NCBI GenBank assembly: GCA_017614715.1
Contig: JAGABI010000020.1
Location: 1 to 53,179, forward strand
Reading direction: 5' to 3'
From: Bacteroidales bacterium
GTDB taxonomy: Bacteria > Bacteroidota > Bacteroidia > Bacteroidales > UBA932
DNA length: 53,179 bases
Position numbers and translations under genes: made by a program. Under the pieces are notes generated by a model. It did not search any database and was not told the origin of the DNA. It was given only the letters and a program-made list of their open reading frames with translations. Below are positions 34,597-46,229 of the stretch, piece after piece. Every line of letters begins with the position of its first letter. The first letter of the stretch is position 1.

Positions 34597-37047
34597 TTAC
34601 AGGTCGAAACCGATGGATGCGTAGGCTGTAACGCCCACTACGTTACACCATTGTACCGCAAGCCTCAGCGGCCCGAACATACTCCGCCGGGAATACTCTG
34701 CGCCAAATGCATAGATCGGGTCAGTGTGGATGAACTCCTTTAATGTGTATTCATCCTTGAAATAGCCTCCCCTCACCGTAACGAAATTCTTGGCGGAGAA
34801 CTGATATCTCAAGTCCAGTTGTCCCACACCGGTGAACGGCCGGCAGTTAAGGTAGCCGTTGGGGAAACCGAAAAACGGGATCTGCCGCTCTGTGAAGCGG
34901 TTAGGGATGAATCCCCCGATTGTGTTGATGTGCATGGGACAGAGAGTGTTGTCGTCATAACTGTCCTCAAGGCGCAGGGGATACCATGCCAGATATAAAC
35001 TGGGAAGGATGGTGAAGCGGTTACCAATGGATAAGGCCCCATGGGCAGAAGCAATTGCCGACAGATAGCCCGGAACCTGCCCGTCTTCTGTGTGAGCCAT
35101 GTGACCATAGCTCGATAAACTCGATGGATCCAGGTCTATAGAGTATCCTTTGAATACATAGCGGCCGTCCAGGGTAAGCCGGACGCCACTGGTGGGGAAA
35201 TAGCCGTCGTTGAAAGAATCAAACTTCAGTGTTGCGAACGCCGACAGCCAATAACTCTTCCAATCCCAGCCTATCCACTCTTCTGTTGAGGAGAGGTAGT
35301 GTTCATAGGGCTCCATCTCTGCCGAGAGGCCGGCTCTCATCGAGCCAAAGTGCATGTGGGAGTCCTCAATGTATGCGTCAAGTGCTGTGTGCAGCAGCTT
35401 TTCATAGTTGCTGTACATATATCCGGAAGGGGTGTTGATAAGCTTGGCGCGGGCAATCAGGCCAAATGTAGGCATTCCGGTCATGCTCTTATGGGCAAAG
35501 TCTATGGAGAGGGCCGGGCTGGTACCCAGCTTTAGCTCCGTGGTGAGCCTGGGGCCGGCCAGCCTGCGGGTGCCAAGTCCAAACCTTACCCCCACGGATA
35601 CCGCCTCGTCGGTATCGGCGTGGATGCCCATGGCGACCTCGTGGACCTGCCCTTTCTGGCAGTCGAACACCAGTGTATATGGCTCATGCTGCCCCTCAAG
35701 ATGATAGGTGATGGCTTCGAACGCGTTGGTACCATATATATAGTTCAGCATCATCTCTATCTCTTGACTGCCAAACATGTTATCTTGCGGGATTGCCCGC
35801 TTGTAAAGCAGTATCTTCTGCTCCTGCTCCGTAATGCCGGTGAACTTGATATCATCAACAAGTACCTTGGTTTGCGCGAGGTTTATGGCAGGGGCCGGGT
35901 GTGAGACAGGTGTCTGGGGCTTGTCCGCCACCATCGCGGCTACAGCCTCGAAAGCCTCTTTGTTATCCAGCGCATTCTGATAGCCCTGGTTTATTATGTC
36001 GTCCACGCTCTTCTCGTCAAATGATAGCATATTGTAACCCTTGAGCGCGTGGTGGACATTGATGTCCATCATCTCCTTTGTCTTGGACGCAGCCTCCTCA
36101 GAAAGCAGCCCGATGGTCTGGAACAGGAAATCTACGGGAGAGTTCAACTCGTCGAGGTTGCGCTTCGAGTTCATTTCAGAACCTATGACGATGTCGGCAC
36201 CCATCTCCCTGGCCAGGTCAAGGGGGTAGTTGTTGCGCATGCCGCCGTCCAGAAGTATCTCGCCGTCGGAGCGGACTGCCCTGAAATAGAATGGGATCGC
36301 CATGGTGGAACGCATCGCCTTTGTCAGGCTGCCGCTGGTCCAGTATTTGGGCGCCTTGGTGTACATGTCGGTGGCGACGCAGGCATAGGGGATGGGGAGG
36401 TTTGCAAAGCTGATGCTGTCCTGATACCCCACGCTCACAGAACTGAGGGTGTTGCGCACGTTCAGTCCGTACAAGTATCCGTCGGGCATGCCAATCCCGA
36501 CTTTCCTCATTGCATCTTTCAATGCATCGTTGGTATCGTGTCCCGCCTCCTCCGCCATGGTGTCGATAACCTTCTGCTGGTCAAGGCGGTAAACAAGATC
36601 CTCGTTGTCGTAATGGAACGGGACGTTGATTAGATAATGGTTGGCCCTTTGCTTAATCTTGTAGGGGATATATTGTTTGGGGACGTTGTCCGACATCATT
36701 ACCGGCCAGTTTATGCTCCTAACCAGGGAATCCAGCTGGTCGTGCTTATATCCGAGGGCATACAGGCCGCCGATGAGACCGCCCATGCTGGTGCCCGTGA
36801 CAATGTCCACCGGAATCCCGAGCTCCTCAATGTATTTGATGACTCCCAGATGGGCCAGGCCCCTGGCGCCGCCGCCCGCCAGCACAAGCGCCACCGTCGG
36901 CCGATACTGCCGTATGGAATCCATCCTTGCCCGGACCTTGGCAAACGCCAAAGAATCGGCCTGGGGTTGCGCACTCGGCATCACCTGTGCCGCCGCCCCC
37001 AAAGCCATCGCCCCGATGAGGCATATAGTTAGAAGAAGCTTTTTCAT
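34597..37047 (-). CDS. Patatin-like phospholipase fused to Omp85-type barrel
   Basis: An 816-residue PlpD-like protein. A signal peptide (about 1-21) precedes a patatin domain with VALVLAGGGARGLAHLG (about 52-68), the nucleophile elbow GTSMGG (Ser87) and the dyad motif LLDGGMRNNYP. A POTRA-like region (about 395-470, DDIKFTGITEQEQKIL) leads to a C-terminal 16-strand-type barrel ending in an aromatic-hydrophobic strand (ASIGFDL). The architecture is common in Bacteroidota and is thought to place the lipase domain at or through the outer membrane. It faces away from the TIR gene; its start region is part of a divergent promoter that recurs at 40.8 kb. Confidence 0.9.
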   Translation of the reverse strand: MKKLLLTICLIGAMALGAAAQVMPSAQPQADSLAFAKVRARMDSIRQYRPTVALVLAGGGARGLAHLGVIKYIEELGIPVDIVTGTSMGGLIGGLYALGYKHDQLDSLVRSINWPVMMSDNVPKQYIPYKIKQRANHYLINVPFHYDNEDLVYRLDQQKVIDTMAEEAGHDTNDALKDAMRKVGIGMPDGYLYGLNVRNTLSSVSVGYQDSISFANLPIPYACVATDMYTKAPKYWTSGSLTKAMRSTMAIPFYFRAVRSDGEILLDGGMRNNYPLDLAREMGADIVIGSEMNSKRNLDELNSPVDFLFQTIGLLSEEAASKTKEMMDINVHHALKGYNMLSFDEKSVDDIINQGYQNALDNKEAFEAVAAMVADKPQTPVSHPAPAINLAQTKVLVDDIKFTGITEQEQKILLYKRAIPQDNMFGSQEIEMMLNYIYGTNAFEAITYHLEGQHEPYTLVFDCQKGQVHEVAMGIHADTDEAVSVGVRFGLGTRRLAGPRLTTELKLGTSPALSIDFAHKSMTGMPTFGLIARAKLINTPSGYMYSNYEKLLHTALDAYIEDSHMHFGSMRAGLSAEMEPYEHYLSSTEEWIGWDWKSYWLSAFATLKFDSFNDGYFPTSGVRLTLDGRYVFKGYSIDLDPSSLSSYGHMAHTEDGQVPGYLSAIASAHGALSIGNRFTILPSLYLAWYPLRLEDSYDDNTLCPMHINTIGGFIPNRFTERQIPFFGFPNGYLNCRPFTGVGQLDLRYQFSAKNFVTVRGGYFKDEYTLKEFIHTDPIYAFGAEYSRRSMFGPLRLAVQWCNVVGVTAYASIGFDL

Positions 37048-37104
37048 GATGATTTCATATTATTTCTACAAAATTGTTTTTTTTTTGTAAATTTGCAAAG
37101 CGTA
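37041..37104. promoter_or_regulatory. Divergent promoter, copy A of a duplicated segment
   Basis: Runs from the first codons of the patatin gene toward the TIR gene. On the plus strand, TAAATTTG at 37088-37095 is a -7 box for the TIR gene. On the minus strand, TTTG, a 19-base spacer and CAATTTTG form a promoter for the patatin gene. The segment aligns with 40802-40866 almost without gaps: shared runs include TTTTCATGATGA, ACAAAATTG versus GCAAAATTG, a T-run, and GTAAATTTGCAAAG versus GTAAACTTGCAAAG. Confidence 0.65.
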
Positions 37105-37119
37105 GCACGTTTATAGCGT

Positions 37120-38091
37120 ATGGCATATGATGTTTTTATCAGCTATTCTCAAAAAGATTCGATAATAGCTGAAGAGATTAGTTCGGCACTCAGCGATGCC
37201 GGCATTTCTTTTTTTATAGACAAGGAAGGTATAGACGGGGGGCAGAATTTCCCTCAAGTTTTAGCTCAGGCCGTGGATGACTCCACCATCTTCTTATTTC
37301 TGGCGAGTAAGAATTCTTATAATTCTAAATTCACGCGCAGCGAAGTAACGTATGCATTCAACCACAAAGAGAGTGGTGCGATTATTCCATATATCATTGA
37401 TGACAGTGAGACGATGCCGCCAGATCTGGAGCTTATGCTTGGCAATTTCAATTGGCGACATAAATCGAGCTGCCCTATCCGTCCTGCCTTGATTGAAGAC
37501 ATTCGCAAGGCCATCGCTAACCCGGATAAGGGCACAATAGGTGGACGAACAAATGTTTCATCGCGAAAGAATAAAGTATTCTTTTGGACAATAATCTGCG
37601 TTGTTTCCTTATTACTGGTTGTTGCTGCGTTGTTTGCTATTTCATCCACTCGAAATCACAGAATCAATCAAGAAGCCCTATCGGCATCCAGTCAGTATGA
37701 ACAACTGATAGCACAGGCAGATTCTCTTGTTAATTGTGCAGAGGCAATAAAAGAATCAGAAAACTCAATCGAGAAGACTTCTGAACAAATATCATATTTA
37801 AAGCAGGCATACTCTGTCCTTGATAGTGCTGATGCAGTGAGGCACTCTTTCGATAATAGCCAGTTTAAGGGCTTGTTTGTCAAGGATATAGATAATAATC
37901 AATCATCAATAAAAGCCCGGCTTGACTCCATCCACAATGTCTGGGCCTCGTATGCATTTGACTCATATAATCTCTATAAGGTATCCCACCGCGACTCAGA
38001 ACGGGAAAACGTCTTGACTTGTATAGAGTACGCTTTATCTATTAAATCAAACAAAGAATTAGAATCTTTAAAAGAAGTATTAAACCAATGA
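37120..38091 (+). CDS. TIR-domain protein with transmembrane helix
   Basis: A 323-residue protein. Residues 1-130 form a TIR domain: YDVFISYSQKD (box 1), a middle region with FFIDKEG, and the segment ASKNSYNSKFTRSEVTYA, where Glu75 sits at the position of the catalytic glutamate of NAD-cleaving TIR proteins. One hydrophobic helix (about 153-174, FFWTIICVVSLLLVVAALF) follows, then about 145 residues of mostly helical sequence predicted outside the cytoplasm. The stop codon overlaps the next start by four bases, so TIR and the PEGA protein are translationally coupled. NAD hydrolysis or signalling is inferred; a purely structural TIR role is possible. Base composition is AT-richer than the genes to the left. 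Confidence 0.88.
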   Translation: MAYDVFISYSQKDSIIAEEISSALSDAGISFFIDKEGIDGGQNFPQVLAQAVDDSTIFLFLASKNSYNSKFTRSEVTYAFNHKESGAIIPYIIDDSETMPPDLELMLGNFNWRHKSSCPIRPALIEDIRKAIANPDKGTIGGRTNVSSRKNKVFFWTIICVVSLLLVVAALFAISSTRNHRINQEALSASSQYEQLIAQADSLVNCAEAIKESENSIEKTSEQISYLKQAYSVLDSADAVRHSFDNSQFKGLFVKDIDNNQSSIKARLDSIHNVWASYAFDSYNLYKVSHRDSERENVLTCIEYALSIKSNKELESLKEVLNQ

Positions 38092-40412
38092 AAAGACTAA
38101 TCTCCATCTTTCTGTTCCTTTTTTTTGCGATAGTCCCTTCTTTTGCGCAGAAATCGTTTGATATGCGTTATAGTGAGGCAGTAGAGTATTACACAAGTAA
38201 ACAATATGACTTGGCTGTTAAAACACTTGAAGCTGCAAAAAAGGCCCCCGGTGCCACAGAGAGTCAAAAAACACGAGCCGACCAGCTCATACGGCAATGT
38301 CGCTCTGCAATAACCAAACTAGGAGATTTGAATCTTTCTAAAGAAGTGATTATGGCTCCAGGCTCAGGAATGCGCGACAGCATCTATGTAACAGCAGGGA
38401 AAAAATGGAGTATTACTTCCAAGCCTGCATGGTGCTCAACTGAAGTTGAATCAGATGTTATTTTCATTTCTGTCGCCCCAAACCAGGAAGATGAGTCCCG
38501 TAAAGGCGTAATAGAAGTATCTATGGGCAAGGAGCGTACTGCATATCTTCTTGTTACTCAAGATAGTCGTCAAACCATAACAAAGCCGGTTACAATCCGT
38601 ACGATACCATCACGCGCTATGATATATGTCGATCAGAACAGTGGTATGCTTACAGAGCAGTTCCATCTTTCTGAGGGTAAGCACAATATTCGCATAGAGA
38701 AGAACGGGTTTGAGCCCATAGACACCGTTCTCTACGTTCCAAGAAATGCTAAAGAGGATGATCTGGTCCACTTTATTGAACTTAAGCCAACCTTTTCTTT
38801 AATATCCATCAATATCAAACCTGAAGAGGGCTTGTATTTTAACTCAAGCACTACGGTGGATATCAGCGGCAATAGTGTAGACCTGCATCCCAGTCAACTT
38901 AGGACCTTCAATGTAGATCAGGATATTCGCTACTACGAATTATACGAAGGCAATCTTATCCCTCTGCATCCAGGTCAATATGTAATCCGGGCAGAATCGA
39001 ATGGATTCAAATTTGAGGTCAAGCAAATTAAGATTGAAAAAGGCGAGACCATTAATTTGGATTTCACATTATCGGCAATTTATGGAATGTTACGGGTAGT
39101 AGACACGGGGAATGCTCAAGGTGCAAAGGTGATTGTTGATGACAAAGAGATTGGTGTGGTTCCATTTTACGGCAAGATGATGACAGGCCACCATTCCTTG
39201 CGTATTGATAAGTCTGGCTTCCTGCCCGAGTATGAGAGCTACGAATTTGATGTTGAGGAGGGTAAAGAGGTTGTCGCCAACGTTTCTATGAACCGCTATG
39301 CTACATATCGTTTTACATCAAACCCTGAATACAGCCAAATTTTTGTTGACGGTGAACCTATGGGAGTCACTCCGATATCGGTTAAATTAAAAGAGGGTGT
39401 CCACCAACTCTCATGTCAGAAACAAGGCTATCGTGCAAACGATGAGGAAATAGCCACAGACTTATCGTCAGAAACACACGACTTCACGTTCAATATGGAG
39501 AAAACCTACCCGCTTCTCATATCCAGTGATGTTGATAGCCTAAAAGTCACCATAACAAAAGGTCAAGGCAAAAAGAGAGTGGTTTATGTTGATGACGTCA
39601 AGACGCCTGCTACAGTTGAGATTCCGGCAAGCAAAACCATGTATCACGTGCTTTTGACACGAGGCAATTTGTCCAAGGCTTACGATGGATATTTCTGGTT
39701 CCGTGACGGTAATCGCAAACATCTAAAATTGCTGTCCTATCCCATAGAAAACACGTGCTTGCTTGGAGTGAACTATTATCTTAAGAAACCCAAGCCTTTT
39801 TTAGGGGATACTGCGTTTGAGAAGGAGTTCCAACGACTTGGCGAGGTTACCTTTGCTGAAATACAGCTTTTCCCAGGCTTTACCTCAAGCGTTGCCAAAG
39901 GGGCATTCTTCTGGCCCACACAGTCTCAACAAATTGTTTACCCTGCGAACGACAAGGGTCGTTATGGCCTGAGACCTGGTGATGATTTATATAGAGACGT
40001 ATCGTTTATTCCTGCACTGACATTACTATTCTTAAACGATGAATTCCGTATCGGCGGTGCCCTTCACCACAACGTTGACCTTGACTTCCTTGCTTCATAC
40101 GCGTGGTATCCCAGCCTGGTTAGGATTATGCCGTTCAATCACATGTCAGGGCACGACATATTCGTGGGTGGCGAAATATCATCGCGTATACCTATCTTTA
40201 CTGCAAGTATAAGGGTTGGGGTACAGGCCTTCTACGGTAATGTTAACATTTGTCGTCCCAGTGGAGTTATGCCAAACTCCGCAACAACAGAAGACCGTTA
40301 TATTTCAGAACCGTATGTTATCCCGTACAATCAAGCTCAAGGTGTCGTTTCTCTTTGTATGAAACTTGGCTCCAAGAACTTTAAAGGCAATAATATTCTT
40401 CGTGTATTTTAG
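38088..40412 (+). CDS. TPR/BACON/PEGA-repeat protein, outer-membrane-like C-terminus
   Basis: A 774-residue secreted protein (signal about 1-21, ending FAQ). Then a TPR-like helix pair (about 25-72), a BACON-type domain (about 98-158, KKWSITSKPAWCSTEV), and at least three PEGA repeats (about 166-235, 333-402 and 405-470) with the typical form of a small strand, a D/N-G turn and a GxHxLxxxKxGY ending, for example VDGEPMGVTPISVKLKEG. The last 200 residues are rich in alternating aromatic and polar residues and resemble a small outer-membrane barrel. PEGA and BACON domains are taken to bind surface polymers. Four-base overlap with the TIR gene indicates that the two proteins act together, perhaps with the PEGA protein as the external sensor. 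Confidence 0.8.
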   Translation: MKRLISIFLFLFFAIVPSFAQKSFDMRYSEAVEYYTSKQYDLAVKTLEAAKKAPGATESQKTRADQLIRQCRSAITKLGDLNLSKEVIMAPGSGMRDSIYVTAGKKWSITSKPAWCSTEVESDVIFISVAPNQEDESRKGVIEVSMGKERTAYLLVTQDSRQTITKPVTIRTIPSRAMIYVDQNSGMLTEQFHLSEGKHNIRIEKNGFEPIDTVLYVPRNAKEDDLVHFIELKPTFSLISINIKPEEGLYFNSSTTVDISGNSVDLHPSQLRTFNVDQDIRYYELYEGNLIPLHPGQYVIRAESNGFKFEVKQIKIEKGETINLDFTLSAIYGMLRVVDTGNAQGAKVIVDDKEIGVVPFYGKMMTGHHSLRIDKSGFLPEYESYEFDVEEGKEVVANVSMNRYATYRFTSNPEYSQIFVDGEPMGVTPISVKLKEGVHQLSCQKQGYRANDEEIATDLSSETHDFTFNMEKTYPLLISSDVDSLKVTITKGQGKKRVVYVDDVKTPATVEIPASKTMYHVLLTRGNLSKAYDGYFWFRDGNRKHLKLLSYPIENTCLLGVNYYLKKPKPFLGDTAFEKEFQRLGEVTFAEIQLFPGFTSSVAKGAFFWPTQSQQIVYPANDKGRYGLRPGDDLYRDVSFIPALTLLFLNDEFRIGGALHHNVDLDFLASYAWYPSLVRIMPFNHMSGHDIFVGGEISSRIPIFTASIRVGVQAFYGNVNICRPSGVMPNSATTEDRYISEPYVIPYNQAQGVVSLCMKLGSKNFKGNNILRVF

Positions 40413-40481
40413 CAACAACAAGGTGGCTCGCACCTGCCTGTAGTCATAGTGTTATTGCTTTTGTTAAAAAAAGGAAATCAT

Positions 40482-40808
40482 TCAAGTTTCATCGTAAGGA
40501 GTCACTATCGAATAACCCAGCTTGACCATTAGGCGGATTGCATTCATTGCCGTTAGCCGGTCATATTCCTTGTCTTCTTCGCTTAATTCCTCATATGGAA
40601 TCAAGTTAGGGTGCAGTTTGTTCTCTTCATCGCGTTGCGCACCGTAACGCCACCCCTCATCTATTCTTTTTCTGGCCCATACCTCGTGAGTATTGCGAGA
40701 TATAACTTCTGTCAGATCCAGTAATGAGGAGGGTAAAGCAACATCACTTGTATCTACCGGAGCTGGTATGTAACGTGCGTGAGGTGAGGTATTTTGCTCA
40801 TTTTTCAT
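40482..40808 (-). CDS. Stand-alone RyR-domain protein
   Basis: A 108-residue protein that is almost entirely one RyR domain (about 12-100), the module found repeated in ryanodine receptors. Typical blocks are YIPAPVDTSDV, NTHEVWARKRIDEGWRYG, the acidic NKLHPNLIPYEELSEEDKEYDR and AIRLMVKLGYSI. No signal or membrane segment. Bacterial RyR domains are proposed to sense small nucleotide-type ligands, but I know of no proven ligand. It is divergent from the MscS gene and convergent with the PEGA gene; its promoter resembles that of the patatin/TIR pair. Confidence 0.88.
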   Translation of the reverse strand: MKNEQNTSPHARYIPAPVDTSDVALPSSLLDLTEVISRNTHEVWARKRIDEGWRYGAQRDEENKLHPNLIPYEELSEEDKEYDRLTAMNAIRLMVKLGYSIVTPYDET

Positions 40809-40866
40809 GATGACCTATAATAATATCTGCAAAATTGTCTGTTTTTTTGTAAACTTGCAAAGGGTA
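40802..40866. promoter_or_regulatory. Divergent promoter, copy B of a duplicated segment
   Basis: Covers the first codons of the RyR gene and the region toward the MscS gene. It matches 37041-37104, with the start codon of the minus-strand gene, the AAAATTG box, a T-run and the TTGCAAAG box at the same spacing (one-base difference in the T-run). TAAACTTG at 40850-40857 is the plus-strand -7 box; TTTG, 20 bases and CAATTTTG serve the minus strand. Confidence 0.65.
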
Positions 40867-40952
40867 ACGTATGTATTGGGATTTAGTATACGATTTCCTC
40901 AAAATCTGCCTCCAAACATCTATTGATGTAACATCGAAACGAATACACGAAT

Positions 40953-42086
40953 ATGGGTTTATTCAAAACAATATACAAGAAAAACATATCTTCTGATAAA
41001 TTGGGCAGGCAGTTGATTGGGGCAATAGCAAAGCACTGGGTGCTGACCATGCTCTTTGTGCTTGTGTTTGCAATAGGTATAGTCACAGTTGTGTCGCATT
41101 TATTTCCAAAGCCATACTTTTGTCAAATATGGAATGGGTATACATCGGTACCTGTTATTAAGTGTGTTGCTTTGGTATGCCTGACCTTTTTTCTGGTGGC
41201 CCTCATCCGGATCTGTAACACGCTCACAGAAATCAACAGCCTCCTCCGAAAAGAAAACAGGATAACATGGTGTCAGATATGGATTCTGATTGGCATTGGA
41301 CTTTGGGCCCTTGGTTTTATCTTTATACTGGGCATCCAAAAAGAGATGAGTTCCTCTATAGGCTTCGGCCTGATTGGGAGTGTCTTGGCATGGATATTCC
41401 AAGATAAAATCAAAGGTGCGGTTTCCTTTATTCATTTTAGGAAGCACAACCTTCTTAATATTGGAGACTGGATTAAAGTTCCCAAACTGGGCGTAGACGG
41501 TGAGGTAAAAAAAGTAACACTAACCGCCGTGACACTGTATAATTGGGATACAACGACATCTACAATTCCTATTAATGCCCTTCAGTCGGAACATTTCATG
41601 AACCTTCAGAATATGGTCGATGGCAAGACCTATGGGAGAATGATGCGGAAAGACTTCACGATTGATACTGGGTGGATTCGACCTGTAACTGAAAAAGAAA
41701 CAAGGGCTCTTATGTCGGGTGGCCATGGTGTTGGAGTGTATCTCCCTGAGGATGAGATAAAAGACGGTGCAAATAATGCTCAACTATACAGGCTTTATTT
41801 GTACCATTGGCTGATGAACAATCCGAGCATTTCCCATCAGCCGTGCCTTATGGTCCGATGGCTAGGGCAGAAAGATAGTGGATTGACATTGCAGGTATAT
41901 GCTTTTATCCTAGAAAGCGAACTTGTTTCCTTTGAGTGGCAACAGTCGCAAATCATTGAGCATATTATCACATCAATGGGGTGGTTTGGACTTAGGCTCT
42001 ATCAGAGTCCATCTGCTTATAACGTAAGCAATGGCAATATTCATATCGATAACACGGAGATTATCATCAAGGAGAATACGAAATGA
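40953..42086 (+). CDS. MscS-family mechanosensitive-type channel
   Basis: A 377-residue membrane protein. Four hydrophobic helices (about 28-50, 68-90, 106-128 and 135-155) precede the MscS beta domain. The pore helix region GFGLIGSVLAWIFQDKIKGAVSFIHF and the following NIGDWIKVPKLGVDGEVKKVTLTAVTLYNWD with STIPINAL are typical of the YbdG/MscM-like branch. The C-terminal cytoplasmic part is larger than in small MscS channels. It overlaps the next gene by four bases, so channel and Rossmann/RyR-like protein are coupled. Osmotic protection is the default role; a gated effector channel in a signalling system is the alternative suggested by the neighbours. Confidence 0.88.
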   Translation: MGLFKTIYKKNISSDKLGRQLIGAIAKHWVLTMLFVLVFAIGIVTVVSHLFPKPYFCQIWNGYTSVPVIKCVALVCLTFFLVALIRICNTLTEINSLLRKENRITWCQIWILIGIGLWALGFIFILGIQKEMSSSIGFGLIGSVLAWIFQDKIKGAVSFIHFRKHNLLNIGDWIKVPKLGVDGEVKKVTLTAVTLYNWDTTTSTIPINALQSEHFMNLQNMVDGKTYGRMMRKDFTIDTGWIRPVTEKETRALMSGGHGVGVYLPEDEIKDGANNAQLYRLYLYHWLMNNPSISHQPCLMVRWLGQKDSGLTLQVYAFILESELVSFEWQQSQIIEHIITSMGWFGLRLYQSPSAYNVSNGNIHIDNTEIIIKENTK

Positions 42087-43222
42087 AAAGACCTATGAGA
42101 GAGCGCCCATTTGAATACCTTAGGCGTATGGATACGAATGAGGCCTTTTCGGAGGAAACGGTTAAGAACTGGTATATCGCGCGAGCATTTGTGCTAGACA
42201 AACTGAGGAATGTCTCTTTCACACCGTGTGCAAACAAGCATCTTCATGTAGACATTGACGGGGACAGCCCTGTAATGTTGGCAATTCTCAGGCAGGTGGC
42301 ATTATTGGCACACTATCCAAACTTTGTGGAATATGACCAGTTCAATAACCTTGTGTGCAAAAACCGTACGGTCATTACGCTGATTAGCGACAAGGCTTCC
42401 GATGAAATCGTCCATGAACTTGAAAGAGAAGAGTATTTATGCAATTTGCTGAAATACTGCAAACATGTTGTGTATGGTACTGTATTTAACGACGATTCAT
42501 TCATAGATGTCGAATTGGATATTGCGCACGAATTAAGCAAAAGGTCAGATAGCATTTACATATGTGAGAATGACATTTCAGCTTTTTTGGAAGGCAAGTC
42601 ACCTGATGATGTTTATACTATTGATACTCGTAAGGCCGTATATGCCGGCAGGGCATATGGCCTGGGTGCAATCATAGATAATCTCCCTTATGAGGACATC
42701 AACAGCGCCGGACGATATAACCGGGCTCTTGACGCTTTTCAATATAAGGTCCTCCAAGATAGAAAAGGATTACAACTAATTACACCTAATTGGTGTGAAG
42801 ACCTTACGGCTGTAAAGAGTGGGTTGTCAAATGTTTTTTGCGCCGATTCTTTTGAGTTCCGGGAACTTGCCATCAAGCACCAGTATCCTCGATATGATAT
42901 GTTAAGCGAGCTAGAGAAAAAGGAGGCCTGGGCGGACAATAACCATGCTTTGTCGATAAGTGAACATGGCCGATGGATTGTGGAGAAGCTTATCCTGGGT
43001 TTTCGTCCCCTTAATGATCAAGAGCGCAGAGAATATGAGGATTTGTTCGATAAAAGAAGGGAGGCATATATTTCACTGCTAAAAAACAATCCTTCTTCTC
43101 CTACGCACATTGATTTATGTTCATACAAGGAGCTTCGGCGCATAGATCCCGACAATATGAAGTACGACAGTTTCCTGATGCTGGCGATTCCGCTTATTTT
43201 GGAAAAGATTCGAAAAGGTTGA
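42083..43222 (+). CDS. Divergent Rossmann (TrkA-N-like) plus RyR-like protein
   Basis: A 379-residue soluble protein without signal or membrane segment. The N-terminal region (about 48-230) resembles the Rossmann part of TrkA-N/RyR proteins of Bacteroidota: the stretch MLAILRQVALLAHYPNF followed by NRTVITLISDKASDEI fits their AHFPNF and RITFID blocks, but the glycine-rich nucleotide loop is not preserved (LHVDIDGDSPVM instead). The C-terminus (about 290-375) reads as a degenerate RyR module: SEHGRWIVEKLILGFRP, then HIDLCSYKEL and YDSFLMLAIPLIL. The start codon overlaps the MscS stop. The domain reading is by eye and should be regarded as moderately sure. Confidence 0.6.
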   Translation: MKRPMRERPFEYLRRMDTNEAFSEETVKNWYIARAFVLDKLRNVSFTPCANKHLHVDIDGDSPVMLAILRQVALLAHYPNFVEYDQFNNLVCKNRTVITLISDKASDEIVHELEREEYLCNLLKYCKHVVYGTVFNDDSFIDVELDIAHELSKRSDSIYICENDISAFLEGKSPDDVYTIDTRKAVYAGRAYGLGAIIDNLPYEDINSAGRYNRALDAFQYKVLQDRKGLQLITPNWCEDLTAVKSGLSNVFCADSFEFRELAIKHQYPRYDMLSELEKKEAWADNNHALSISEHGRWIVEKLILGFRPLNDQERREYEDLFDKRREAYISLLKNNPSSPTHIDLCSYKELRRIDPDNMKYDSFLMLAIPLILEKIRKG

Positions 43223-43294
43223 TGGCGAATAGGAGATACCTGTTGCAGGGTTTTTTGTCGTGTGAGTGTGTGTAAAGAAACCAGGTTATTTTTC

Positions 43295-43516
43295 TTAATG
43301 CCCGGGAGGACAGTAGTCTTGGTACAAGGCAACAGGGCCTAAGTTCCAGTACTTTGTTTCTTCTCGCTCTAAGCGGCGGTAGGTTTCAGAAGAGTAGAAT
43401 TTAGTAAGAGCCTCCAGCGGGCTGATGTGTTCGTCTTCGGCAATAAAGGCCGCCACAGCTGCCGCCTTGCCGGCTAAAAGCAGATATAGGTTCTGTTGTG
43501 TGATATCTGCTCTCAT
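43295..43516 (-). CDS. Small protein of the DUF3990/DUF3791 set
   Basis: A 73-residue protein that overlaps the stop codon of the DUF3990 gene by four bases and so belongs to the same operon. It is rich in helix formers, with SPLEALTKFYSSETYRRLE and a tail WNLGPVALYQDY. Proteins of this shape commonly accompany DUF3990 genes in Bacteroidota and Firmicutes. It may be an antitoxin component. There is no signal or membrane segment. Function not demonstrated by sequence. Confidence 0.65.
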   Translation of the reverse strand: MRADITQQNLYLLLAGKAAAVAAFIAEDEHISPLEALTKFYSSETYRRLEREETKYWNLGPVALYQDYCPPGH

Positions 43517-43995
43517 AGCCTTATCTCCTTTGCACTAATGAAGGTTAGGAGTTTCAGCGCCTCTTCCGAGTGGAAGACAATCTGGTCAATAAGCCTGTAG
43601 GTTTTGAGCTCAACGATGAGTTCCTGTTTGCTCAGAAGTCCTTGCTCATAAAGGGCAAAGGCGGCATATACACGGTCGTTGGCAACCGGGCCATAAACAA
43701 GGTCATTGTCGTGCGTGAAACCACGCCGATTACGGTTGGCGTAAACGAAATCTATCCAATCCTCGCCAGGCGGGTTGGGGAAGATAAGGCGTTTAAGGCT
43801 GGCCGCAGCAACCTCGTCAAATCGATAAACGTTTACATACCCGCTTTGGCCCGTTGAGATTCTGCGGAGCGACCAATCGCGTGCCTGTTGCTCGGAGGTT
43901 GTGGTATAAAACCCAACCCCATAATCCAGAGTCCTCTTGGGAGTCAGGATGTGGGGGTCGCGTACGATTTGAGGACTGCCGTGAAAGAGTATCAT
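43513..43995 (-). CDS. DUF3990 protein, ADP-ribosyltransferase-like toxin candidate
   Basis: A 160-residue DUF3990 protein. The opening LFHGSPQIVRDPHI, the central DYGVGFYTTTSEQQARDW and the later DLVYGPVANDRVY are family marks; the HGS and GFYTT blocks resemble the NAD-binding strand and STS-like motif of ADP-ribosyltransferases. The DUF3990 family is usually encoded with small DUF3791 proteins and is considered toxin-antitoxin-like. Here it overlaps both neighbours by four bases, which gives a compact three-gene operon on the minus strand. Targets unknown. Confidence 0.75.
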   Translation of the reverse strand: MILFHGSPQIVRDPHILTPKRTLDYGVGFYTTTSEQQARDWSLRRISTGQSGYVNVYRFDEVAAASLKRLIFPNPPGEDWIDFVYANRNRRGFTHDNDLVYGPVANDRVYAAFALYEQGLLSKQELIVELKTYRLIDQIVFHSEEALKLLTFISAKEIRL

Positions 43996-44198
43996 AGGCC
44001 AATCTTTTCTTCAATTTCTTCCAGAATCCAAGGCATACCTTGTGTGTGGAGAACATCGAAATAATCAGACAGATACTGTTTGATTTCGTGCCGGTCAAAG
44101 AGTTTTGATACATCTTCTCCGGTAAGACCATGCTTATTCTTGTAGCTCTCTATGCAAAAAGCCACAAAATAGAGTATGTCGGCATCTCGTTTACTCAT
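43992..44198 (-). CDS. DUF3791 small protein, probable antitoxin partner
   Basis: A 68-residue DUF3791 protein and the first gene of the three-gene operon with DUF3990. The pattern LYFVAFCIESYKNKHGLTG, VSKLFDRHEIKQYL, then YFDVLHTQG is typical of the family. It is acidic and helical, as are many antitoxins. No DNA-binding motif is evident. It starts about 36 bases before the guaA stop region on the same strand, but the intervening bases have no obvious promoter box that I can name. Confidence 0.75.
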   Translation of the reverse strand: MSKRDADILYFVAFCIESYKNKHGLTGEDVSKLFDRHEIKQYLSDYFDVLHTQGMPWILEEIEEKIGL

Positions 44199-44250
44199 TA
44201 CACATTAGCATGCTTTACAAAGCTACGAAATAGGGGCTGAATTGCAAAAC

Positions 44251-45234
44251 CTATTCCCACTCGATGGTTCCGGTCGGCTTGGGTGTGAGGTCGTAAAGTA
44301 CGCGGTTCACTCCCGGCACCTCCTTTACGATGCGCTGGGTGATGTGGTGCAGCAGCGGGTAAGGAATCTCCTCTATGGTAGCGGTCATGGCGTCGCGTGT
44401 GTTGACGGCGCGGATAATTACGGGCCAGTCCCAGCTGCGTTTATTGTCTTTTACGCCGGTGGATTTATAGTCGGGCACCACGGTGAAGTATTGCCAAACC
44501 TTGCCTTCCAGGCCGTTCTTTGCAAATTCCTCGCGGAGTATCGCGTCGCTTTCGCGGAGGGCCTCAAGACGGTCGCGGGTGATGGCGCCGGTGCAGCGCA
44601 CACCCAGCCCGGGGCCGGGGAACGGCTGGCGGAACACCATGTTGTCGGGCAAGCCCAGTTCCTTGCCCACCACGCGCACCTCATCCTTGAACAGTAGTTT
44701 GATGGGCTCTACAAGCTCAAACTGAAGGTCTTCTGGCAGTCCGCCGACATTGTGGTGGGATTTTACCGGACCGGATTCGATGATGTCGGGATAGATGGTT
44801 CCCTGTGCCAGAAAACTGATTCCCTCCAGTTTGCGGGCCTCTTCCTCAAACACGCGGATAAACTCCGCGCCTATGATCTTGCGCTTCTGCTCCGGGTCCG
44901 CAACGCCGGCCAGCTTGTCAAGAAAGCGGTCGGTTGCGTCAACATAAATCAGGTTGGCATCCAGCTCGTCGCGGAAAACGCGTACAACCTGCTCGGGCTC
45001 GCCTTTGCGGAGGAGTCCGTGATTGACGTGTACAGATACCAATTGTTTGCCCACCGCCTTGATAAGCAGCGCTGCCACAACAGAAGAGTCAACACCGCCG
45101 GAGAGGGCGAGCAGCACCTTCTTGTCGCCAATCTGTGCGCGCAGTTCGTTAATCTGTTCTTCAATGAATTTCTTGGCCAGAGCGGAGGTCGTGATGCGCT
45201 CCATAGTTGCCGGACGAACGTTACCTGTAGTCAT
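44251..45234 (-). CDS. guaA: GMP synthase, ATP-pyrophosphatase subunit only
   Basis: Converts XMP to GMP by way of an adenylated intermediate. The 327-residue protein has the pyrophosphatase loop [13 protein letters not shown], the blocks [63 protein letters not shown], and the C-terminal dimerisation domain ending TGTIEWE. The glutamine amidotransferase domain that normally occupies the first 190 residues is absent, as in archaeal two-subunit enzymes. A TAACTTTG box (45256-45263, minus) directly before the start shows that the short form has its own promoter, so this is not simply a broken gene. Ammonia use or a separate amidotransferase subunit encoded elsewhere is expected. Confidence 0.92.
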
Positions 45235-45255
45235 AGTATGTACAATTTTTTATTA

Positions 45256-45263
45256 CAAAGTTA
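45256..45263 (-). promoter_or_regulatory. guaA -7 promoter box
   Basis: CAAAGTTA on the plus strand reads TAACTTTG on the minus strand, a full match to TAnnTTTG, 21 bases before the guaA start. No TTTG is seen at the expected -33 position. It overlaps the stop codon of the integrase remnant. Confidence 0.5.
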
Positions 45264-45764
45264 GGTTTTTTTGAGGATAAACAATAATGACTTGACATCT
45301 GACTCCAAATACTTTGCGAAAGCCCTTATTGACATCTCGTGATTGTAACGCGTCTTCTCGGTAATCTCTTGAGATTCATAGCGACGTTCATTATATTCAA
45401 GAGCATAAGCGACGATATCCATCTTCTTCGCCGTGTCTTTAGTTGAGAACTCGCCGGCCATCATCTTTTTTAGAATGGCCGCTGTTAGGATATGGTTCCC
45501 CTGTAGATAGTCTGCAATCTGTATGTCTACCTTTCTTTTGATGTCTTGTATTTGGGCATTAAGCCGGGGGGCGTCTTTGACCTTACGCTTGATTACTTGA
45601 TTTACTGGGTCCCACTCATCCTCATGAAGCAATATACCGGTGGTGCGAAATATTGCCTTAGAGTTGATAACATACTGGAGATATATACTCCGTTTACCAC
45701 TAGCGTTCGCTTTTGCTTTGAAGAGAAATTTACCTTGCGGTATTGAATAAGATTTGGCGTGCAT
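45261..45764 (-). pseudogene. Truncated tyrosine recombinase (integrase N-terminus)
   Basis: The 167 residues match the start of Bacteroidota phage/transposon integrases: an arm-type DNA-binding domain (KFLFKAKANASGKRSIYLQY, then GILLHEDEWDPVNQVIKRK) and the beginning of the core-binding domain (YNHEMSIRAFAKYLES). The sequence then ends in LLFILKKT just before guaA; the catalytic domain with the R, H and Y residues is missing. It is a remnant left by an element that once integrated here. The cut point is about 30-50 bases from the guaA start. Confidence 0.8.
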
Positions 45765-45862
45765 ACAAATACTCTAAAACTGGTTTCATTCCTTTATATA
45801 TTTTGGGAGTACAAATTTGTAAGTATTTTATAAGCGAATACGCCGTAAAAAGCCCCAAAACG

Positions 45863-45894
45863 ACAAATCGCAGCCCTTGCGGACCGCGATTTGT
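45863..45894. terminator. Hairpin downstream of the DUF2795 gene
   Basis: ACAAATCGC (45863-45871) and GCGATTTGT (45886-45894) form a 9-base stem with a 14-base loop. Read on the minus strand it follows the DUF2795 gene and is trailed by CGTTTTGGGGCTTTTT, so a weak terminator is likely. The nearby integrase remnant leaves open that it is part of an old attachment site. The remaining bases between 45765 and 45930 show no gene. Confidence 0.45.
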
Positions 45895-45930
45895 AAGCGC
45901 TAAATTATTGATTTTCAGCGGGTGTGGCGA

Positions 45931-46152
45931 TTAGTACTCCTCCTCATTCCAGAAGAAATCTTCTTTTGTGGGGTAGTCGGGCCAGATGTCCTCTATGGAT
46001 TCGTAAACTTCGCCGTCATCTTCTAGGTCGGAGAGGTTCTCGATGACTTCGAGAGGGGCGCCGCTGCGGGTAGCGTAATCTATCAGTTCGTCTTTGGTTG
46101 CAGGCCAGGGGGCATCGTCCAGTTTGGAGGCCAACTCAAGTGTCCAGTACAT
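45931..46152 (-). CDS. DUF2795 small protein
   Basis: A 73-residue acidic protein of the DUF2795 family, found very widely in Bacteroidota. MYWTLELASKLDDAPWPATKDELIDYA at the start and the C-terminal EDIWPDYPTKEDFFWNEEEY are almost invariant in the family. No function is established. It is probably transcribed alone and ends at a hairpin. Confidence 0.9.
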   Translation of the reverse strand: MYWTLELASKLDDAPWPATKDELIDYATRSGAPLEVIENLSDLEDDGEVYESIEDIWPDYPTKEDFFWNEEEY

Positions 46153-46229
46153 ATCAAAAATGGATAATAATTATAACTCTGTTTGCTAAAAGGGCTGCAA
46201 AGATATAATAAAAATGATATACTCCTAAA

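Follow-up and report, generated by a model that had tools for sequence, protein, structure and literature searches.

We analyzed a cluster of five genes in a 53,179-nucleotide stretch of DNA from a Bacteroidales bacterium (GTDB UBA932; assembly GCA_017614715.1, contig JAGABI010000020.1, positions 1 to 53,179), called the window here at its full length. It makes up contig C64 in a genome of 2.0 Mb (69 contigs, 92.9% complete). The genes encode a TIR protein, a PEGA protein, a stand-alone RyR-domain protein, an MscS protein, and a fifth, Rossmann/RyR-like protein that we call ROSS; from its sequence, the cluster is best read as a membrane second-messenger system. All five open reading frames (ORFs) are intact:

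37120-38091, plus strand: TIR (Pfam TIR_2, 4.5e-20)
38088-40412, plus strand: PEGA (Pfam PEGA, 2.6e-26, in four stretches)
40482-40808, minus strand: stand-alone RyR, 108 amino acids (PF02026, 4.2e-33; 113.9 bits against a cut-off of 27.4)
40953-42086, plus strand: MscS (Pfam MS_channel_2nd, the beta domain, 4.2e-09; 36.8 bits against a cut-off of 20.2)
42083-43222, plus strand: ROSS, the fifth gene (without a Pfam match)

A preliminary description, made from the DNA letters without database searches, had placed the five genes at these positions and had reported ATGA overlaps within two gene pairs; the frames are open there, and both overlaps are present (TIR/PEGA at 38088-38091, MscS/ROSS at 42083-42086). 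It had also described the pairs as enclosing the RyR gene, which is correct for the pairs and the position but missed the strand: TIR-PEGA and MscS-ROSS lie on the plus strand, and RyR lies between them on the opposite strand, divergent from MscS.

The pairing of MscS with ROSS recurs across genomes. A scan of a genome collection returned 31 MscS-ROSS or ROSS loci, 32 with the window. In 30 of these, the gene immediately upstream of ROSS, in the same orientation, is MscS (in L117 after 61 bp); in both exceptions the contig starts at or inside ROSS. Four of the loci (L104, L105, L106, and L111) look closely related, and L114 and L116 are one genome. Relatives in this collection are Bacteroidales-type metagenome-assembled genomes, many of them listed with a ruminant-gut source. 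By hydropathy, on which the other topology statements also rest, the MscS protein has three strong transmembrane segments and a pore helix region, and its profile matches YnaI (8.7e-06), which identifies it at the sequence level as a YnaI-like channel of the MscS family. RyR and ROSS have no transmembrane segments. The analysis supports a role for MscS as the output of the set, as first proposed in the preliminary description.

The N-terminal half of ROSS resembles NAD(P)-binding Rossmann folds when its AlphaFold2 model (mean pLDDT 90.2) is compared with known structures, with middling Z scores (best 6.5, residues 22-180), so that the first half of its original label holds in part; this comparison covered the N-terminal half and barely touched the helical C-terminal half. 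Profile comparison revealed a relation that had been overlooked, to the gating domains of RCK channels: residues 47-375 of ROSS align with the C-terminal half of fused pore+RCK proteins (hhalign 99.6%, E 8.9e-25). Such fused proteins (A6 type, ~645-825 amino acids) adjoin an RyR gene in 16 of the 36 RyR genomes of the family and carry N-terminal transmembrane segments (two checked) and an RCK-like region, whose match to Slo-like_RCK is below the cut-off in L014 and L015 and above it in L119; their match to DMI1 is weak (E 0.025). The fused channels keep H707, W710, H752, and D769 in 10/10 sequences, and ROSS keeps a motif of H295, W298, Y361, and D362 in 25/25, with H342 in 23/25. At the C terminus, both L119, whose front half is A6-like, and L120, a TrkA_N protein, carry an RyR domain above the Pfam cut-off. 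By its homology with pore+RCK proteins, ROSS looks like the gating half of an RCK-type channel that has left its original pore and joined MscS, and we propose it as the gating subunit of MscS.

As to the second half of the label, RyR-like, profiles connect the C terminus with RyR only in steps and not by direct comparison. The ROSS C terminus links to the fused-channel C terminus at 99.5%, the latter to divergent RyR ends at 95.5%, and these to the stand-alone RyR at 98.3%, with reversed-sequence controls at ≤0.3%. From the ROSS C terminus to the divergent RyR ends the link reaches 95.7% with 11 intermediates, a value that is partly circular, since these first 11 included the A6-like C termini L124, L133, and L081. 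Hidden Markov models built locally from matches served for ranking only. Against PDB sequences, ROSS hit just two entries, at E 0.4, which we attribute to chance. The D676-type RyR membrane proteins (G098, G230, G145, G081, and G294) were tried as relatives of ROSS, which the comparison did not support (3.6%; weak to A6, 45%).

The profile of the stand-alone RyR protein matches RyR repeats of known structure as well as bacterial entries named "putative ryanodine receptor", and its pocket residues H41, W44, H66, and D83 are kept in 19/19 aligned sequences. According to the available part of a 2026 preprint (PMC13232231), a phage PF02026 protein, RyDEP, cleaves 2'/3'cADPR (cADPR, cyclic ADP-ribose); four such residues, in RyDEP H75, W78, H100, and D117, bind the TIR product 3'cADPR, and the His and Asp are named as catalytic. 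The same part reports that six of eight phage RyR homologues bound the signals and that none but RyDEP degraded them. The window RyR has the same four residues at identical spacing (3, 22, and 17; reference positions from the preprint). These matches support the idea, already in the preliminary description, that the stand-alone RyR reads a TIR-type nucleotide. Among phage records, 218 of 50,697 matched the window RyR by tblastn, all below 60% identity, with two unannotated fecal records at 50-53%.

The TIR protein consists of an N-terminal TIR domain (~3-112), one transmembrane helix (153-171), and a C-terminal tail of ~150 amino acids predicted to lie outside the cytosol, and the PEGA protein begins with a signal-peptide-like hydrophobic segment (4-22). 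Because of this single helix and this segment, the TIR domain is predicted to be cytosolic and the tail external, beside a secreted partner. The best matches of the TIR profile among solved structures are the NADases tir-1 (9.2e-14) and SARM1 (1.4e-13), and the catalytic Glu, E75, is kept in 10/10 homologues, supporting the earlier proposal that the TIR is a signal-making enzyme. It is the only one of the five proteins to match a defense model, and those matches cover the TIR domain only (PADLOC ThsB models, best 2.6e-07; NCBIfam Thoeris ThcB4 at 40.6 bits, where the cut-off is 220). Of the label PEGA/BACON, the first part is borne out, and the BACON match (6.9e-05) falls just below the Pfam cut-off (23.2 against 25 bits). 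Residues 80-158 of the PEGA-protein profile (A3) match a solved cellulase chain, 3zmr (1.4e-05), in a part that we take to be its BACON domain. The PEGA protein, whose conserved C-terminal region ends in LRVF, is a candidate sensor that would partner the TIR from the periplasm.

Other TIR proteins take the place beside MscS-ROSS in many loci, often without PEGA. A TIR was found in 19 of the 32 locus stretches, in every case with the Glu retained (by eye); those outside the clade of the window are 20-30% identical to the window TIR. Their builds include single-transmembrane, macro-TIR (L098), SIR2-TIR (L107), TIR-NACHT (L117), and TIR+WD40 (L112). The single-transmembrane TIR adjoins a protein with a signal-peptide-like N terminus in L102, L108, L110, and L088, and TPR repeats were found in those scanned (L102, L108, and L071, on the same contig as L088), an arrangement that parallels TIR-PEGA. 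With regard to the fusions, SIR2-TIR (L107:11415-12800) directly follows RyR and MscS-ROSS, and macro-TIR (L098:12938-14029) lies 1.8 kb from MscS-ROSS; both bring domains of Thoeris-type chemistry into these neighborhoods.

RyR is present in 13 of the 32 locus stretches; in 12 of these 13 it shares the strand of ROSS, and it mostly lies within 1.1 kb. When whole genomes were searched, TIR_2 was found in 28/28 ROSS genomes and RyR in 17/28 (these 28 were searched without the entries L105, L106, L111, and L116, the last from the same genome as L114). For the family, the background at E 0.001 is 70/299 genomes for TIR_2 and 36/299 for RyR (66 and 33 above the Pfam cut-off); the 28 genomes lie partly outside the family, so this background does not match all of them. 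Within the family sample, ROSS occurs with TIR in 9/9 genomes (P 1.4e-06), with RyR in 8/9 (P 1.7e-07), and with PEGA in 5/9 (0.39 expected; P 7.7e-06). Of the 36 RyR genomes, 29 have a TIR (8.4 expected; P 6e-15), and in 12 the two lie within 10 kb (0.44 expected under uniform placement in 2.3 Mb; seven TIR rows below the Pfam cut-off are excluded from this count). Full-length PEGA homologues (E <1e-50) were found in 13/299 family genomes, with a TIR directly upstream in 11 and an RyR-domain or ROSS-like gene nearby in 10 (the exceptions are G312, G085, and G218). A second contig of G256 (L177) held nothing usable.

Within the genus, ROSS is present in 4/26 genomes. Among the genus members sampled, full-length PEGA and RyR occur in the same four, and TIR_2 in these four plus G008. 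Three genus-mates carry all five genes at another site and in another order: in G001 and G004, RyR-MscS-ROSS faces PEGA-TIR, and G015 is arranged alike across two contigs. In these three the set has one site in common, next to a gene that by eye is RNase Y-like, and may reflect a single event; the window represents a separate site and order. The gene-neighborhood survey that the preliminary description had recommended thus gave positive co-occurrence, although not universally for all five genes.

Two further features of the window bear on the set, a variable segment, which the preliminary description had overlooked, and a repeated upstream sequence:

37048-46229, no strand: variable segment holding the set (mean G+C 44.2%; flanks 54%)
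37040-37104, no strand: upstream sequence, copy 1, before TIR (holds TTTTTTTGTAAATTTGCAAAG at 37080-37100)
40801-40866, no strand: upstream sequence, copy 2, between the divergent RyR and MscS genes (21-mer at 40842-40862)

Inside the segment, the five genes have a G+C of 40-45%; a guaA-like gene (57%) and a DUF3990 gene (51%) are not low. Because homologues of both flanking genes are only 1.1 kb apart in the genus-mate G019 (L171; recorded with 8% contamination), with two small ORFs between them, ~8 kb appears to have been gained or lost at this site. The comparison covered the patatin neighborhoods of seven genus-mates (G021, G019, G018, G023, G020, G005, and G008); both flanks were found only in G019, and the other six, without this flank pair, are uninformative on an empty site. 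From its composition and this comparison, the five-gene set looks acquired. The TIR and MscS upstream regions have in common a 65-bp sequence, in adjoining repeats of 79% identity over 47 nt and 92% over 25 nt, and the 21-mer within it, TTTTTTTGTAAATTTGCAAAG, occurs exactly twice in the 2.0 Mb of the genome, both times at this cluster. As a mark unique to the system the 21-mer was rejected: a third copy with one mismatch (L141, G000:C58) precedes a gene resembling a sugar-phosphate transferase (by eye), and the sequence is probably a promoter type. Together, co-occurrence and the 65-bp sequence support the view, also that of the preliminary description, that the five genes form one functional set beyond chance association.

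We regard it as fairly probable that the cluster is wired as a second-messenger system in which a messenger from the TIR is read by RyR-type pockets, with MscS as the output; each detail is less certain than the wiring as a whole. An envelope event would be sensed by PEGA, as a secreted protein, together with the TIR tail outside the cytosol, activating the cytosolic TIR to convert NAD into a cyclic ADP-ribose-type messenger. The receptor would be the RyR-type pocket in ROSS, that in the stand-alone RyR, or both, and ROSS would then open the co-encoded MscS pore by means of its RCK-derived gating half. The resulting ion leak would arrest or kill the cell, most likely against phage. The stand-alone RyR, with its His/Asp pair kept, would be a second receptor subunit or an off-switch that binds or hydrolyzes the messenger. 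What the sequences show directly is the genes, the families to which they belong, how they co-occur, and that catalytic and pocket residues are kept. We infer the ligand, the gating, and the benefit, whether phage defense or envelope stress relief; phage defense is the more likely of the two, given the variable segment, the patchy distribution of the set, and the TIR partners at other loci. The overall interpretation in the preliminary description is thereby upheld in part, for the set, the TIR signal, the RyR reader, and the MscS output. Its proposal that PEGA detects envelope damage is tentative, resting on topology and the parallel with the TPR proteins. A more specific version, in which a transmembrane TIR triggered from the periplasm makes a cADPR isomer that opens MscS via RyR-type pockets, would be a bacterial counterpart of cADPR-ryanodine-receptor signaling; we offer it tentatively, at slightly below an even chance.

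Several observations weigh against this reading. The P values for co-occurrence treat related genomes as independent, and TIR and RyR may both simply accumulate in accessory islands. A TIR is lacking from the locus stretch in 13/32 MscS-ROSS loci, PF02026 RyR is absent from 11/28 ROSS genomes, and full-length PEGA is absent from 4/9 ROSS genomes of the family. ROSS is rare (3/393 genomes of the order), and no relative of it was found on plasmids (tblastn) or on viral contigs (pattern-based). By eye, no copy of the 65-bp sequence was recognized upstream of RyR-MscS-ROSS in G001 or G004, so that co-regulation through it would at most be limited to this genome. Finally, direct comparison of the ROSS and stand-alone RyR profiles is not significant (C terminus alone, 0.1%), and for ROSS the stepwise link drops to 75.4% and 51% in a repeat without the A6-like intermediates, run with seven sequences after exclusion of L124, L133, L081, and L047 (a near-duplicate of L051).

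In an alternative that is compatible with the wiring above, the stand-alone RyR would chiefly turn the signal off, setting a threshold as a glycosidase or sponge for cADPR isomers, with ROSS as the sole receptor. The conserved residues that correspond to the catalytic His and Asp of RyDEP (19/19), the divergent transcription of RyR in the window, and the 11/28 genomes with MscS-ROSS and without RyR are consistent with such a role. However, the shared strand and proximity of RyR and ROSS elsewhere, and the RCK-channel gene adjoining RyR in 16/36 genomes, are as expected of a channel subunit, and the six phage homologues that bound the signals did so, RyDEP apart, without degradation as far as the available preprint text goes (PMC13232231). 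We consider the off-switch rather unlikely as the main role.

An envelope or osmotic stress circuit has the same wiring and overlaps with the proposed system: PEGA would sense wall or outer-membrane damage, the TIR would supply the messenger, and MscS would relieve turgor, allowing the cell to survive. Channels of the MscS superfamily are known for osmotic release, the MscS here is YnaI-like, the PEGA and TPR partners have signal-peptide-like N termini, and the TIR alone among the five proteins matches a defense model. Against this stand the patchy distribution (4/26 genus members) and the variable segment with its candidate defense gene of type PDC-M13, both more typical of defense than of housekeeping, and the SIR2-TIR, macro-TIR, and TIR-NACHT partners at other loci, and we judge a purely stress-relieving circuit unlikely.

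TIR-PEGA and RyR/MscS-ROSS could also be two independent modules that share an island by chance. ROSS occurs without PEGA in 4/9 family genomes and PEGA without ROSS in 8/13, and in G225 TIR-PEGA-RyR and MscS-ROSS are on separate contigs. Nevertheless, both are found in five family genomes in differing arrangements, an excess over the 0.39 expected, the upstream sequence is common to both operons in this genome, and in five of the eight PEGA genomes without ROSS, TIR-PEGA adjoins a protein that bears RyR or resembles ROSS (G081, G098, G145, G230, and G317). We judge independence improbable. Equally improbable is a TIR that is itself a toxic NADase effector, with MscS-ROSS adapting the cell to NAD loss through NAD(H) read by the Rossmann domain of ROSS, even though many bacterial TIRs deplete NAD and the N-terminal half of the ROSS model resembles NAD(P)-binding domains.

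The proposed second-messenger system is related in parts to several known ones. Like Thoeris (the TIR protein ThsB with ThsA, a SIR2-SLOG protein, or with macro or other effectors), it would combine a TIR with a separate effector reading an ADP-ribose-type messenger, and the TIR with a catalytic Glu is found here too; in contrast to Thoeris, the TIR is membrane-anchored with a secreted partner, and the effector would be MscS with RyR-type readers. For the other four proteins, neither the PADLOC matches (E ≤0.1) nor those in NCBIfam include a Thoeris effector model, and ThsA was not found, Pfam giving PEGA, RyR, and MscS for the neighbors. Because no ThsA was found, the set is not Thoeris, though it would work alike. 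RyDEP is PF02026 with its four ligand residues at identical spacing, but according to the available preprint text it is a viral counterdefense that degrades or soaks up the signal (PMC13232231), whereas the window RyR is bacterial and sits in a set with a TIR and a channel. Animal ryanodine receptors likewise have RyR domains on a cytosolic ion-channel assembly, with an adenine-ligand pocket according to the same text (PMC13232231). Those receptors are one giant Ca channel; here there would be a small separate protein and an MscS pore. In bCNG channels, the cyclic-nucleotide domain is fused to the channel, whereas the regulator here would be a separate Rossmann/RyR-like protein. The likeness lies in an MscS-superfamily pore under nucleotide control (titles cited in PMC4560390). 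The homology of ROSS with bacterial pore+RCK proteins, over their C-terminal half, recalls CASTOR/DMI1- and Slo-type RCK channels, since those proteins match Slo-like_RCK and, weakly, DMI1; unlike such channels, ROSS lacks a pore and the first RCK, and its partner pore is MscS.

RyR domains were reportedly predicted in 2015, by Burroughs et al., to be nucleotide sensors, and TIR a nucleotide enzyme, in conflict systems; to our knowledge, the MscS-ROSS-RyR-TIR-PEGA set is not described there. The literature searched, which did not extend to that study, contains no description of the five-gene set or of the signaling route. Term searches of the available text found neither MscS nor "bacterial RyR" in PMC13232231 and no RyR, ryanodine, or MscS in PMC9503650 or PMC7159879. 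As far as the available texts go, Thoeris and RyR appear together only in PMC13232231 and a review, and the PEGA and TIR domains together only in work on sponge-associated archaea. If the proposed reading is true, RyR domains would have a native bacterial role as receptors of TIR messengers, copied by phages as sponges or enzymes, which hints at why phages carry RyR proteins. TIR signaling would gain an ion-channel output, an unrelated MscS pore would have taken over the gating half of an RCK channel, a regulator thus moving from one channel architecture to another, and the question of the RyR ligand would be directly testable in a small bacterial system.

Other RyR-bearing proteins were observed in the survey. 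A family of 665-738 amino acids with N-terminal transmembrane segments (two checked) and a C-terminal RyR domain (L046, L047, L049, L051, and L122) adjoins TIR-PEGA or a stand-alone RyR and is another candidate RyR-controlled membrane effector. Proteins of ~320-380 amino acids in L081, L085, L125, L131, L132, and L133 have an RyR domain in their C-terminal part, and several of their genes are preceded by a sigma-factor-like gene (by eye).

The variable segment holds two further features downstream of ROSS:

43513-43995, minus strand: DUF3990 gene (Pfam, 1.9e-42; PADLOC candidate defense PDC-M13B, 1e-53)
45261-45764, minus strand: integrase fragment (arm DNA-binding domain only, 2.4e-13)

The integrase fragment is a possible relic of the entry of the segment. 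A 73-amino-acid ORF at 43295-43516 on the minus strand overlaps the DUF3990 gene by 4 bases, and the two are perhaps a toxin-antitoxin pair.

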